DNA of 44,111 nt from an uncultured delta proteobacterium. GTDB taxonomy: Bacteria > Desulfobacterota > WTBG01 > CAIYCZ01 > CAIRTM01. Numbering within the stretch: position 1 is the first letter of the stretch; the number at the start of each line of letters is the position of its first letter. The position numbers were made by a program, and so were the translations under genes. Positions 28,882 to 40,964 of the stretch are shown here, one piece after another. The stretch covers positions 1-44,111 of the forward strand of contig CAIRTM010000026.1 in assembly GCA_903881505.1 (NCBI GenBank). The letters are read 5' to 3'. Below the pieces are notes generated by a model. The model saw nothing but the letters and a program-made list of their open reading frames with translations. It did no database searches and had not been told where the DNA came from.

Positions 28882-30123
28882 ATGAAAAGAATCGCGTGCT
28901 GCGTCATTGTCGTCGCATGCCTTGCGGCTGCCCTCGCGCACGCAGGTGAAAACCCATGCGCCTATCCGGTTGCCGCTTACAGCACGGCCGAGCTCGAATC
29001 CCTGCGGCAGTGGGAAAAAGAGTGGGCCGAAAAAAAAATCACCTCCGCGACCGTTGACGCCGTACGGGACTTCCTGCCCGAGAGTTTCTACCGCCTCATG
29101 AAAGACGCCGCAACCTGGGGCGAAACCTGGTTTACGATCGTCGCCTACCGGCCGATAGAGCCCACACCCGGGGCCGTTGCCATGACCCGGCGCTTCTGCG
29201 GGGAGCCGGCCGTGAACGCCGACGGGTCGCTGCGCAGCTGGACCAGCGGGGTTCCCTTCCCGCAGGCCGCAAACGGCATTGAAATGGCGCACAACTTCCG
29301 CTGCCGCAGCTACGGTGACGGCTACAGTTCCGATGAAACAGGGCACCTCATCGACGGCGCGTTCGGCTATGACCGGACTCTGCACATCAAAAACCAGTAC
29401 CTGCATTTTTCCGGCAGAACCGATGTACAGCCCGTGCCCGAGATACCTGATAATACCAAGCAGCTGTGGCGGGCCTTTCACATGCACCAACTGGCGCCGC
29501 CCGAGGTCAGAAACCTGCGCATCATCGAGCTGCAGTACAAGGATGACACCCGGCCCTATGACTCCTGGATCTGGATATCGGCCCTGCGCCGCATCCGCAG
29601 GCGCTCGACCTCGGAGCGTCAGGACGCCCAGGGCGGGGCCGACTTCTGCGGATATGACAATTTCGGATGGGACGGCCCCGTGCACATCAACACCTACCGG
29701 AACCTGGGACGCAGAGACGTGCTGCTGTGCCGCCATAACGACCAGCGCCAGCTGGTCCACACCCCGGGAAAATGCCTGTATGACGGCACCCGGCGCGAAC
29801 GCATCAACGCCCATGTGCTTGAGATCACCAGCCGCGACCCCAACTTCCTCTACAGCAAAATGATCTGGTATCTCGACCCGGAAACCTGGCAGATACTCTA
29901 CTCTGACCGTTATGACCGCGACGGCAGGCTCTGGAAAGTGCTTGACCAGCTCGGCAGCACCAGCCCGGGCCCCGGAGGCGCCACGATCAGCTTTTTCAAC
30001 GCCAGCCAGATGATCGACGTGCAGCGGCGCCATTCAACCGCGGGCAGGGTCGACTATGTTTTCGGCACGAAACCCGACACGCAGGTCGTCAGCCTGCAGT
30101 ACCTGCAGAAACACGGATACTGA
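28882..30123 (+). CDS. DUF1329 exported protein
   Basis: A 413-residue protein with a signal peptide (about 1-22). It is probably periplasmic or attached to the outer membrane. The body fits DUF1329: G-x-x-M-x-H-type segments, the 'R..H.IEL.YKDD.RPYDSW.W..ALRR.RR' region at about 212-240, and YSDRYDRDGRLWKV near the C-terminus. DUF1329 proteins often occur with DUF1302 outer-membrane proteins, and one is found 7.7 kb away (37846-39429). A lipid/hydrophobic compound transport role has been suggested for such pairs but is not shown here. GGGAG precedes the start. It stands between two hybrid kinases. Confidence 0.85.
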   Translation: MKRIACCVIVVACLAAALAHAGENPCAYPVAAYSTAELESLRQWEKEWAEKKITSATVDAVRDFLPESFYRLMKDAATWGETWFTIVAYRPIEPTPGAVAMTRRFCGEPAVNADGSLRSWTSGVPFPQAANGIEMAHNFRCRSYGDGYSSDETGHLIDGAFGYDRTLHIKNQYLHFSGRTDVQPVPEIPDNTKQLWRAFHMHQLAPPEVRNLRIIELQYKDDTRPYDSWIWISALRRIRRRSTSERQDAQGGADFCGYDNFGWDGPVHINTYRNLGRRDVLLCRHNDQRQLVHTPGKCLYDGTRRERINAHVLEITSRDPNFLYSKMIWYLDPETWQILYSDRYDRDGRLWKVLDQLGSTSPGPGGATISFFNASQMIDVQRRHSTAGRVDYVFGTKPDTQVVSLQYLQKHGY

Positions 30124-36241: not shown

Positions 36242-36919
36242 CTACCGTATTACCTCTTTGAAAATCCTGGTGGCCCTGTCCATGCCGATAAAGCGTCCCA
36301 GCATTTTACGCGAGCCGTCCTTTTCACTCAACTGATCGCAGTAGTGAAGGCTGGCAGCAGCCGCCCGCTGCGCATACTCGGGATCGGCGGCAGGGGCTGC
36401 CTCGTCGAGCAGGCCGAGATAGCAGCGCAGGACATCGAGCGCGCAGGCAAAGGCCTTCTCAAGCAGGCCGTTGTCTGCCATGGCATATATGCTGCAGTCG
36501 TGCAGGTACGGCTGCATCCACTCTTTGGGCTTTGCCGGCGGCCCGATCGCATACCCGGCAACCACCGGCCGCAGCCGCTCAACGTAGCGCTGAAGATACT
36601 GCCGATCGGTAAACAGCGGAATGAAATTCATATAAATAAACGATTTTTTCTTCATGCAGGAGAAGTCAATCGCCAGCAGCGGCATGTCATAGCAGCTCTC
36701 CGGATATATCTCCAGAGCGAGGATTTCAAGGCGCGGCAGCTTGACGCTTGAGCGCATGACATTGACTTTGCGCACCTTGGGCGCGCGCCAGTTGTCAAGC
36801 CGCAGCGTCATGAAACCCAGCGGCAGCCGGATGTGGCGCAGATCCTCGGGAACGAATGTCGGCTCGAGAGGATAGCGTTCCCGGATCATGGCAAGCATTG
36901 CGTCTTTCAGATGGTCCAT
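36242..36919 (-). CDS. Ferredoxin-dependent bilin reductase-like protein (PcyA/HY2 family)
   Basis: A 225-residue protein that can be aligned by eye along most of its length with phycocyanobilin:ferredoxin oxidoreductase. Matching segments are PLEPTFVPEDL (17-27), a V-RK-V strand, EILALEIYPESCYDMPLLAIDF (65-86), W-x3-Y-x3-CSIY (134-145), and LHYCDQLSEKDGSRKML (191-207). Asp85 falls on PcyA Asp105 and Asp201 on Asp220, while positions of PcyA His88 and Glu76 are Ala and Met. The family reduces biliverdin to phytobilins with ferredoxin or flavodoxin electrons. AGGAGG supports the start. It follows the flavoprotein gene by 56 bases. The substrate here is unknown. Confidence 0.78.
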   Translation of the reverse strand: MDHLKDAMLAMIRERYPLEPTFVPEDLRHIRLPLGFMTLRLDNWRAPKVRKVNVMRSSVKLPRLEILALEIYPESCYDMPLLAIDFSCMKKKSFIYMNFIPLFTDRQYLQRYVERLRPVVAGYAIGPPAKPKEWMQPYLHDCSIYAMADNGLLEKAFACALDVLRCYLGLLDEAAPAADPEYAQRAAAASLHYCDQLSEKDGSRKMLGRFIGMDRATRIFKEVIR

Positions 36920-36975
36920 CCGTTCCTCCTGTGTCTGTCACTCCACAACGGAGCACTCATGCTGCCCCGGTGCGC

Positions 36976-37593
36976 TCAGCGCATACCGGTCATGGTGACG
37001 AGGTTCATGCCAAGCTGGAAGGCTTTCTCAAGGTCATCGGACTTGGCGCGTACATCCTGCGGCCCCATGTTGCCGCGGCTGATAACGTCGCCCACACGCC
37101 GGATGCCCAGGTCAATCAGGTTGCGTTCAAGCACCTCATGCACCAGCGCGGATGAGAACACCGGATCGCCCTGGCTGATGACAATGGCGGCCCTGCGCCC
37201 GCTGAGCCTCGAGGTAAAACCGCCGCCGGTAATGCGGCCTTCCGCATCCGTGTCCGGCACAAACTCCATCAGGGGCAGCAGGCGCGAAAAAAAGGTGAGC
37301 AGCGGCGAGCTCACGGTGCGCATATGATTGGGCGTGCCGAAAATAAAAGCGTCGCAGGCAACCATGCGCTCGAGGATGCCGGGCATGTCATCGGGAAGCG
37401 GGCAGGCTTTGGTTCCCGGCGGCGGGAACGTGCAGGTCAGGCACCCAGTGCAGTAGCCGATGCTGTGTTCGGTAACGAACAGCGTGTCCAGCTCGACAGC
37501 GGTTTTGCTTGCGGCCCCCCGGGCAACGCGGTCGACCAGGAAATCGGTGTTGCCGCCCCTGCGGGGGCTGCCGATGACTGCCATGATTTTCAT
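36976..37593 (-). CDS. Flavodoxin-like NAD(P)H-dependent FMN reductase / iron-sulfur flavoprotein-like
   Basis: A 205-residue redox protein. The N-terminal IGSPRRGGNTDFL is the FMN phosphate-binding loop of the NADPH-dependent FMN reductase/flavodoxin fold, and FGTPNHMRTVSSPL binds the isoalloxazine region. A cysteine cluster C-x2-C-x2-C-x10-C (about 48-64, YCTGCLTC...ACPL) resembles that of archaeal-type iron-sulfur flavoproteins, which bind a 4Fe-4S cluster. It is the first gene of a two-gene unit with the bilin-reductase-like gene and could supply its electrons; this is inference from context. GGAGCG precedes the ATG, and a promoter is at 37714-37742. Confidence 0.85.
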   Translation of the reverse strand: MKIMAVIGSPRRGGNTDFLVDRVARGAASKTAVELDTLFVTEHSIGYCTGCLTCTFPPPGTKACPLPDDMPGILERMVACDAFIFGTPNHMRTVSSPLLTFFSRLLPLMEFVPDTDAEGRITGGGFTSRLSGRRAAIVISQGDPVFSSALVHEVLERNLIDLGIRRVGDVISRGNMGPQDVRAKSDDLEKAFQLGMNLVTMTGMR

Positions 37594-37845: not shown

Positions 37846-39429
37846 TTAAAATTCATATGTATATTCAAAGGTCCAGAAATCCTTGTGGTTCAAATTCGCC
37901 GGGCTGTCACCCAGCCCGAAATAATCGAGATAGCGAACCATGAACGTATGCTTGAACTGCGGCTTGAACCCCAGCGCCGGCGCCCAGTAGCCCCCGGCCT
38001 CGTTGGTATAGTATACCCCGTAAAAACCGGGCAGAATGCGGCCGTTCCACAGTTCGTAGCCCAGTTCCTCCGTAATGACCGTCCAGTGATGCCGTTTCGG
38101 GGCATATGTCACCCAGGGAAAATATTGATCATTGCGGCTCCTGGCAGGCATGGTTTCATAAAAAAGCTGGGTGGTCGATGCCAGGTACTTGTTGCGCGCC
38201 CATGGGGTGATGTACGGCAGGAATATTTTCGTCTGCCACGCAAGACACACCGCATACCGGTCCTGCTCGGTTATGCGCGATTGCATCATCCTGGGGTCAC
38301 CCACCGTCTCGGCAGCGGGCTTGCCGTGCTCCCAGACGGACTCCAGCCTGAAAATGCTGCCTGCCATGGCAAGCGTGGTGCCCGGAATAATGGGGATCGT
38401 GGCATCGATCGGCTTATTAAGCGTAAAGCCGAATGTTTCCATCCATGGGTAGCGGTACACGTCTTCCAGGTGCACCAATCCCAGCATCCCTGCAAATACC
38501 TCCATGCCCTTATTGGGCTTCAGCACGCCGTCGTCATTGCGATGGTGAAAACAGGACAGTGTCCAGTCAAAGCCCGCAAGAAAGCCGCGGATGCGAATGC
38601 CGAATTCAGGCTTGCTCCAGTCGTCCTGGGGCGCGTCGCGATAGAGAGCCCTGTACTGCTGATCGAAGAAGGGAAAAGGATTGGCGGCTTTCGGGTGCGA
38701 AAGATGGTAGCCTGCCGGCCACTGCCGGTTGGGCTCGAAATCCGGTATAACAAGCAGTTCATAGCTCAGGTCCATGGGCTGATCCATGGGGGTGAAAAAC
38801 AACCGGGCCATCCACAGGCCGCGCTTGATCTCGGCGAAATCGGGATAGGCAGGATTCAGGTTGCCGCGCGCGTCAACCGGGTTGATGTTGTCGACCATGC
38901 GCTCGAAACCGGTCTCCCCCCATGAAACGATCTGTTTGCCAAGGCGCACCTGGAAAAGCGGCGCGTTGAATTCAAGAAACAGCTCCCGCGAGATATCCTT
39001 GAGCTGGTGATAATAATTGAGCTGGTCGATCCCGCTTGTTCCACCGTTTGAGCCCCACTCAAGATAGTGCTTATAGCCGCTGTCAAGCCGGTGCGCGCCG
39101 TCATAAAACTGCTTCCACACGCTGTACAAATTGACTGAATATTCAGGCCCGTCATACATGTACGCCATGGCCTCCAGCTTCAGCGACGTGCGGGCGTTGA
39201 ATATGCGGTAATCGTACAGTTCGTAATCCTGGATGTCATGCGCCCGCATCAACAGCTGATTGGACCATTTACCGTGGATGACGATCCTGCCGTCATACAG
39301 ATCGATCGCTCCGGCCGTGCCTGCGAGCACGAACGCACACATGATGCATGCGCCTGCCAGTACCCACATGCAGCGATTGGCTGCAGCACGCATCATAGCA
39401 GCTGCCGGCGCCTCGTTATGACTGTCCAT
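37846..39429 (-). CDS. DUF1302 outer-membrane beta-barrel protein
   Basis: A 527-residue exported protein with a signal peptide near residues 14-41; ATG codons at residues 12 and 13 are alternative starts. The mature protein is rich in aromatic residues in alternating strands and ends in YTYEF, the C-terminal Phe of outer-membrane barrels. The LGKQIVSWGETGFERMVDNINPVD segment near residue 165 is the hallmark of DUF1302. Such proteins pair with DUF1329 and are thought to move hydrophobic compounds or lipids; here the DUF1329 gene is 7.7 kb away. Another small exported protein is divergently encoded. The actual cargo is unknown. Confidence 0.86.
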   Translation of the reverse strand: MDSHNEAPAAAMMRAAANRCMWVLAGACIMCAFVLAGTAGAIDLYDGRIVIHGKWSNQLLMRAHDIQDYELYDYRIFNARTSLKLEAMAYMYDGPEYSVNLYSVWKQFYDGAHRLDSGYKHYLEWGSNGGTSGIDQLNYYHQLKDISRELFLEFNAPLFQVRLGKQIVSWGETGFERMVDNINPVDARGNLNPAYPDFAEIKRGLWMARLFFTPMDQPMDLSYELLVIPDFEPNRQWPAGYHLSHPKAANPFPFFDQQYRALYRDAPQDDWSKPEFGIRIRGFLAGFDWTLSCFHHRNDDGVLKPNKGMEVFAGMLGLVHLEDVYRYPWMETFGFTLNKPIDATIPIIPGTTLAMAGSIFRLESVWEHGKPAAETVGDPRMMQSRITEQDRYAVCLAWQTKIFLPYITPWARNKYLASTTQLFYETMPARSRNDQYFPWVTYAPKRHHWTVITEELGYELWNGRILPGFYGVYYTNEAGGYWAPALGFKPQFKHTFMVRYLDYFGLGDSPANLNHKDFWTFEYTYEF

Positions 39430-40238: not shown

Positions 40239-40964
40239 TCATTCATTGATAAGGTATTTGGCTGCAACCGCTTCCAGGCTGCAGGAAGCCTTTCGTCCGC
40301 CGGCAAGCAGCCGCAGGGCCTCGATATCGGACACCCACGCCACGTTGCCGGGCGCCAGGAGGCAGACACTGCCCGGCTCATAGGCGGTGAACAGCTTGCC
40401 CTCTTTGTAATAATAATGCTCATCGCTGGCCCGGGACTCATAGATGCGCATGGCGGGCGGCAGATCTCCGGGCTTGAACCAGAGCTTGATTTCGCGCTCG
40501 GCGTCAGCCGGGTTGGCGGATGCGTGAATCAGGTTGTCCATGCGCTCGTCAAGCACCGTGCCCGAGGCGTCTTTCACCGGGAAAAGCGTGCCGAGAGCGC
40601 GGATGCACCCCGGCCGCTTGACGCGCGCCTCGTGCGGATTGGTCGGGCCGGCGATATCGCGTATTTTCTGAATGGCCCCGGGGCCGACATAGGCCAGGGC
40701 TATGACGCGCCGCTTCCACTCCTCATCGGGGTAATGCGAAGCGCCCATGATGTATTCAAGCAGCGATTCAAAAAACACCTTCCCGCGGTGCTCGGCATAG
40801 TGCTCTTCGGCGAGCATCCTGTGCACCCTGACGATCTTGGCGCCGGCGAACCGCAGCCCGGTATGGAATTCCGAGAGCTGCGAAAGCACATACCCGGTCA
40901 GTGAATGCCTGAGCGCGTCAGGCTTGATGAGCACCAGTGTCTGTTCAAAATCTTTTGTGTCCAT
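40239..40964 (-). CDS. ndk: Nucleoside diphosphate kinase-like protein, enlarged
   Basis: Transfers the gamma-phosphate from ATP to NDPs through a phosphohistidine. The usual length is about 140 residues; this protein has 241. Core motifs are present: TLVLIKPDALRH (9-20), GPTNPHEA (106-113) and DNLIHAS with His147 as the phosphorylated residue. Differences are an insert with YPDEEWKRR (79-87), about 15 extra residues before NLIHAS, and a C-terminal extension of about 75 residues (YYYKEGKLFTAYEPG...). Activity is likely but not certain. AGGAGG lies about 11 bases before the ATG. A terminator-like hairpin precedes it in the leader. Confidence 0.82.
   Translation of the reverse strand: MDTKDFEQTLVLIKPDALRHSLTGYVLSQLSEFHTGLRFAGAKIVRVHRMLAEEHYAEHRGKVFFESLLEYIMGASHYPDEEWKRRVIALAYVGPGAIQKIRDIAGPTNPHEARVKRPGCIRALGTLFPVKDASGTVLDERMDNLIHASANPADAEREIKLWFKPGDLPPAMRIYESRASDEHYYYKEGKLFTAYEPGSVCLLAPGNVAWVSDIEALRLLAGGRKASCSLEAVAAKYLINE

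Follow-up and report, generated by a model that had tools for sequence, protein, structure and literature searches.

Why would an apparently anaerobic bacterium carry a gene related to the bilin reductases next to a gene for a cysteine-rich flavoprotein? The window (the whole stretch of DNA analysed, 44,111 nucleotides) encodes such a pair, P0001 and P0002 (Table 1), and both open reading frames exist as an earlier sequence-only reading described them. That reading called such proteins in heterotrophs only recently noticed; FDBR (ferredoxin-dependent bilin reductase) proteins of heterotrophs, named pre-PcyA, were published in 2023 (PMC10151467). PcyA-like proteins in heterotrophs were already known (Rockwell 2023), and the larger finding here, beyond the view of a single window, is an expansion of the FDBR superfamily across the class of the source bacterium. 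In the open-licence literature, neither this expansion nor its heme-oxygenase-free setting turned up in any paper.

Table 1. Features of the P0001 locus and of a second FDBR locus in the same genome
Feature	Location	Coordinates	Strand	Remarks
P0001, FDBR-superfamily reductase-like protein	window	36242..36919	-	225 aa; group IV; catalytic-type Asp85 and Asp201
P0002, FMN_red flavodoxin-fold protein, candidate electron donor	window	36976..37593	-	205 aa; CX2CX2CX9C from Cys48
DUF1302 protein	window	37846..39429	-	PF06980, E 1e-12; about 250 bp upstream
Ferrochelatase-like gene, N-terminally hydrophobic product	L013 (own genome, contig C136)	7040-8491		
Ferredoxin-FDBR fusion	L013 (own genome, contig C136)	8501-9463		
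4-Cys flavoprotein	L013 (own genome, contig C136)	9473-10423		

P0001 is near certain to be an FDBR-superfamily protein, and the kinship with bilin reductases first proposed from the sequence holds. A profile search with Pfam Fe_bilin_red (PF05996) gave 88.5 bits (E 6.6e-25; cut-off 31 bits) over residues 9-223 and profile positions 5-225 of 228, and this was the only Pfam family matched at E up to 1. The closest PDB chains by sequence (phmmer) are GtPEBB, PcyA, PebA and HY2. The AlphaFold2 model was built from only 3 sequences (orthologues) and has a pLDDT of 70.9, with residues 195-225 poor; its best PDB matches (Foldseek) are HY2 (TMq 0.86), GtPEBB (0.84-0.85), PebA (0.81), PcyA (0.67-0.80) and RCCR (0.72-0.81), with HemF next. 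P0001 is thus predicted to adopt the alpha/beta/alpha sandwich of PcyA, PebA and HY2, in line with the fold expected from the earlier reading. The likeness in fold extends to RCCR and to the sequences from Ca. Schekmanbacteria that group with RCCR, whereas the RCC_reductase profile (PF06405) is not matched by P0001. Plant RCCR acts after an oxygenase. In length, too, P0001 resembles PebA, PebB, PebS, HY2 and PcyA, but identity to them is about 20% in structure alignments, and the NCBIfam equivalog cut-offs for PcyA (31 of 206 bits), PebA (61 of 263) and PebB (51 of 327) are not reached. Plasmid sequences matching P0001 were cyanobacterial pebA/pebB only, and there was no phage match.

The alignment confirmed that Asp105 and Asp220 of PcyA are kept in P0001 as Asp85 and Asp201, and the two equivalents are present in all 12 group IV proteins, the paralogue group of P0001. 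His88, Glu76 and His74 of PcyA are represented by Ala68, Met55 and Asn53, so that the His88 and Glu76 of PcyA proper are both absent. This loss had been taken to mean that any reaction may differ from that of PcyA. The loss is real, but it is no special departure because PebA and PebB also lack both residues, and the active site of P0001 is therefore of a non-PcyA type rather than degenerate. Both genes of the pair are under purifying selection, with a dN/dS of 0.079 for P0001 against its sister-species orthologue (86% identity) and of 0.11 for P0002, whose 88% identical orthologue adjoins the P0001 orthologue in locus L044. We consider it quite probable that P0001 is a donor-dependent reductase, and we put the chance that its substrate is a tetrapyrrole at about even.

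The gene directly upstream, on the same strand and separated by a gap of about 57 bp, indeed encodes a cysteine-rich flavoprotein (P0002; PF03358, E 1.1e-16). Its FMN_red/flavodoxin fold and compact four-cysteine motif match those of iron-sulfur flavoproteins, and P0002 may be of this type, with putative binding of a [4Fe-4S] cluster and FMN. To our knowledge, the pairing of an iron-sulfur flavoprotein with FDBR genes has not been described so far. We detected nineteen four-cysteine FMN_red proteins in FDBR neighbourhoods, all with a CX2CX2C...C motif; the spacing to the fourth cysteine differs from one to another. Twelve of the 19 directly adjoin an FDBR gene, where 3.6 would be expected by slot; orthologous loci enter this count more than once, and the associated probability is therefore indicative only. 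The donor role proposed for P0002 gains indirect support from these family members, which adjoin other FDBR paralogues in other genomes, and from the ferredoxins or flavodoxins fused to or beside other paralogue groups. The exact combination of P0001 and P0002, however, occurs solely in the genus of the window, and other group IV genes have different neighbours. It is doubtful that the DUF1302 gene belongs to the same unit, as it does not adjoin the pair in the sister species (L057).

Including P0001, ten loci of the source genome match PF05996, nine of them above the Pfam cut-off. Among 17 sampled genomes of the class, 13 carry 6-17 copies (G000, 10; G001, 9; G002, 17; G003, 8; G004, 14; G006, 14; G007, 14; G008, 7; G009, 9; G010, 12; G297, 16; G370, 6; G395, 9), and four carry none (G005, G140, G236 and G334). 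In a sample of 395 genomes from the phylum, clear matches were found only in 12 of the FDBR-bearing genomes of this class; outside the class, a single genome had a single match, below the cut-off. A few copies have in-frame stops and are probably decayed paralogues or assembly errors, such as those in G004 (C171:1700-2368; three TGA and one TAA) and G001 (C78:5910-6515; one TAA). DUF1329 is another large family expansion in these bacteria, with 1-19 copies per genome. We rejected it as a marker of the FDBR lifestyle, on which it is uninformative because it occurs in all 17 class genomes, including those free of FDBR genes.

A tree of 127 FDBR sequences of the class resolved about 13 deep groups. 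A second tree, with PcyA, PcyX, PebA, PebB and PebS added as references (pre-PcyA and plant RCCR were left out), is unrooted, with a long PcyX branch and several joins left open. The references form clades nested among groups I, II and III, and the class paralogues therefore span more diversity than the PcyA, PcyX, PebA, PebB and PebS references. Group IV, with P0001, and groups V-XIII lie across a branch with 91/82 support from the references and groups I-III. The label PcyA-like used in the earlier reading is accordingly too narrow, since in this unrooted tree P0001 falls outside the clade of PcyA and PebA/B/S. Some paralogue groups also have weak RCC_reductase matches. FDBR-like genes recur in tandem as the pairs IX and VI, VIII and XI, and XII and XIII.

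The active site varies widely among these groups. Position 105 is Asp in groups I, IV, IX and XIII, Glu in II, VII and VIII, Asn in V and VI, and Thr or Asp in III, while it is Phe or Tyr in X, Arg, Tyr or Gln in XI, and Ala in XII. Asp220 is missing only from groups I and XI. The replacements at position 105 in groups X, XI and XII and the missing Asp220 in I and XI, together with the SCP2-like proteins that adjoin some of the tandem pairs, would fit a view in which the fold is all that many of these proteins retain of an FDBR, their role being to bind or carry tetrapyrroles without catalysis. We find this improbable, given the conservation of both aspartates throughout group IV and the electron-donor genes, described below, that are fused to or stand beside several groups.

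Nine of the ten group IX proteins begin with a two-cluster ferredoxin joined to the FDBR domain, and the tenth has a ferredoxin encoded immediately upstream. Ferredoxin motifs also come after group XI genes in all six loci with enough contig and flank group XIII in all four loci, and flavodoxins (family c9) are found near 11 of the 14 group I genes. Both the four-cysteine flavoproteins and the flavodoxins are enriched in the slot beside FDBR genes; no such enrichment was seen in the adjoining slot for AOR, GlcD/GlcF, transport or regulator genes. One-electron donor genes nearby are a feature that P0001 shares with PebA, PebB, PebS, HY2 and PcyA, while the ferredoxin fusions of group IX and the many paralogues set its lineage apart from them. 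A PNPOx-type flavin barrel protein (family c18, for example L060:1523-2347) also recurs in FDBR neighbourhoods, and carries a CXXCH heme-c motif (CNDCH) near its N-terminus.

The sequence-only reading had seen no photosensory or heme oxygenase genes around the pair, and this absence extends well beyond the window. Searches with positive controls for heme oxygenase (PF01126) and for the PHY domain of phytochromes gave no match in the draft genome of the source bacterium or in ten others of its order, and known bilin reductases such as PebA and PcyA differ from this lineage in that respect. Heme-copper oxidase (COX1) was found in none of the 13 FDBR-bearing class genomes (drafts), and is present in the FDBR-free G236 and, as a fragment, in the FDBR-free G005. 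Because these three partners are unmatched, biliverdin that the cell itself produces to sense light is an improbable substrate. FDBR relatives that occur where no enzyme making their usual substrate is detectable suggest a large, undescribed role outside photosynthesis.

The closest precedents are the pre-PcyA proteins (pre-1, pre-2 and pre-3), FDBR proteins of heterotrophic bacteria; most of their clusters carry heme oxygenase, and those of pre-1 and pre-3 typically encode heme oxygenase, an Fe-S protein, V4R and globin (Rockwell et al. 2023, PMC10151467). P0001 could belong to a system of this type, which would convert biliverdin into the bilin chromophore of a light-sensing or protective protein: pre-PcyA enzymes are active members of the same family (PMC10151467), are encoded in gene clusters of non-photosynthetic bacteria, and in pre-2 and pre-3 keep Asp105 and lose His88 as P0001 does. 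Yet none of the 11 genomes of the order matched heme oxygenase or phytochrome, the FDBR-bearing genomes have no detected heme-copper oxidase, no globin or V4R gene was recognised among the otherwise different genes beside P0001, and 6-17 copies per genome is unlike pre-PcyA. We therefore regard such a system as very unlikely here. The known FDBR relatives are all described as ultimately needing oxygen (Rockwell et al. 2023, PMC10151467), and the class of P0001 is a candidate exception. Its genomes, with up to 17 FDBR-family genes and no detected heme oxygenase or heme-copper oxidase, would allow a direct test of that statement.

Several FDBR loci hold clues to the substrate. The ferrochelatase-like gene, ferredoxin-FDBR fusion and four-cysteine flavoprotein of L013 (Table 1) are consecutive on one strand with 9-bp gaps, and this order is kept in G003; xanthine-dehydrogenase-type genes were seen by eye upstream of this run. 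The ferrochelatase-like family carries an HG[LM]P motif in all copies read but one, and nine of ten members match Pfam Ferrochelatase (best E 5.8e-7), while the copy of the source genome does not reach an E under 0.01. Profiles of the chelatase-like clusters c15 and c25 had no matches in the PDB, and comparison of the family with E. coli HemH alone (hhalign) was not significant. The family is present in all 13 FDBR-bearing genomes and in one of the four FDBR-free ones (Fisher p 0.006, kinship ignored). HutW/ChuW was considered as a ring-opening partner and rejected, since its only matches fall below the cut-off and arise in the FDBR-free G005 as well.

Other neighbours differ by group. A gene for a B12-binding radical SAM protein follows group XIII (nearest BchE, 212-215 bits against a cut-off of 481), a heavy-metal P-type ATPase gene precedes group XII, and OYE genes near groups VII and X are nearest to bilirubin reductase and BaiCD, far below the cut-off. 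Weakly SCP2-like proteins (Pfam SCP2, E 0.025) adjoin tandem FDBR pairs in ten of ten cases. In L099:721-8298 and L128:3424-10917 the order is heavy-metal P-type ATPase, FDBR XII, SCP2-like protein, ferredoxin, FDBR XIII, ferredoxin and BchE-like radical SAM gene, a row that looks like a self-contained pathway; in L099 a His-rich protein is encoded ahead of it.

We favour, at slightly below even confidence, a reading in which the P0001 family comprises single-electron reductases for anaerobic tetrapyrrole breakdown. The bilin pocket of P0001 would hold a conjugated substrate, which the protein would reduce by successive single-electron transfers, with protons supplied via Asp85 and Asp201. The electrons would come from a low-potential Fe-S/flavin carrier, for which the adjacent P0002 is the natural candidate, and the reaction would most likely serve as a reductive step in the anaerobic breakdown of environmental tetrapyrroles, whether heme, derivatives of chlorophyll or opened forms of these. 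The family, the fold, the invariant aspartates of group IV, purifying selection, copy number, donor linkage and the missing matches to heme oxygenase, phytochrome and heme-copper oxidase all count for this reading; the ferrochelatase-like operon, BchE-like radical SAM protein, heavy-metal ATPase and bilirubin-reductase-like OYE count as hints. Against it, no ring-opening enzyme was identified, the ferrochelatase similarity is weak, the BchE and bilirubin reductase matches fall far below their cut-offs, 6-17 copies are many for one pathway and several groups have no acidic residue at position 105. For P0001 in particular, neither a chelatase-like nor a ferredoxin gene is present at its locus, and the flavoprotein pairing is genus-specific.

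The many paralogues would also fit many substrates, and the FDBR fold may instead have been recruited to reduce hydrophobic conjugated compounds other than tetrapyrroles (steroid-, terpenoid- or polyaromatic-like) in anaerobic catabolism, again with single-electron donors. Short-chain dehydrogenases are enriched beside FDBR genes, and the SCP2-like proteins by the tandem pairs point the same way, as do neighbouring GGR-type FAD enzymes, AOR, GlcD/GlcF, the OYE near BaiCD, TetR/MarR regulators and MMPL, DUF1302 and DUF1329 genes. Of these neighbours, however, AOR and GlcD/GlcF show no enrichment in the slot next to FDBR genes, nor do transport genes, and DUF1329 is found in every FDBR-free genome of the class too. 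The ferrochelatase-like genes, in turn, track the FDBR genes, and every characterised PF05996/RCCR enzyme we know of acts on tetrapyrroles. We rate this recruitment as possible and short of probable.

For the class as a whole, we tentatively propose a catabolism of tetrapyrroles that needs no oxygen and rests on a radiation of FDBR-fold reductases, in which paralogue groups would each draw electrons from a ferredoxin, flavodoxin or iron-sulfur flavoprotein of their own. If this is true, the FDBR superfamily is independent of heme oxygenase and oxygen, and the photosynthetic bilin reductases arise inside a far more extensive anaerobic family. For enzymology, the paralogues supply some 13 new subfamilies with natural ferredoxin fusions and a range of active sites, as well as candidate enzymes for a poorly known process, the oxygen-free breakdown of heme and chlorophyll.

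Elsewhere in the window, a DUF1329 gene lies at 29038-30051 (+). The gene at 40239-40964 (-) encodes a nucleoside diphosphate kinase of 241 aa, in which the NDK domain ends near residue 166 and is followed by a C-terminal extension of about 75 aa.
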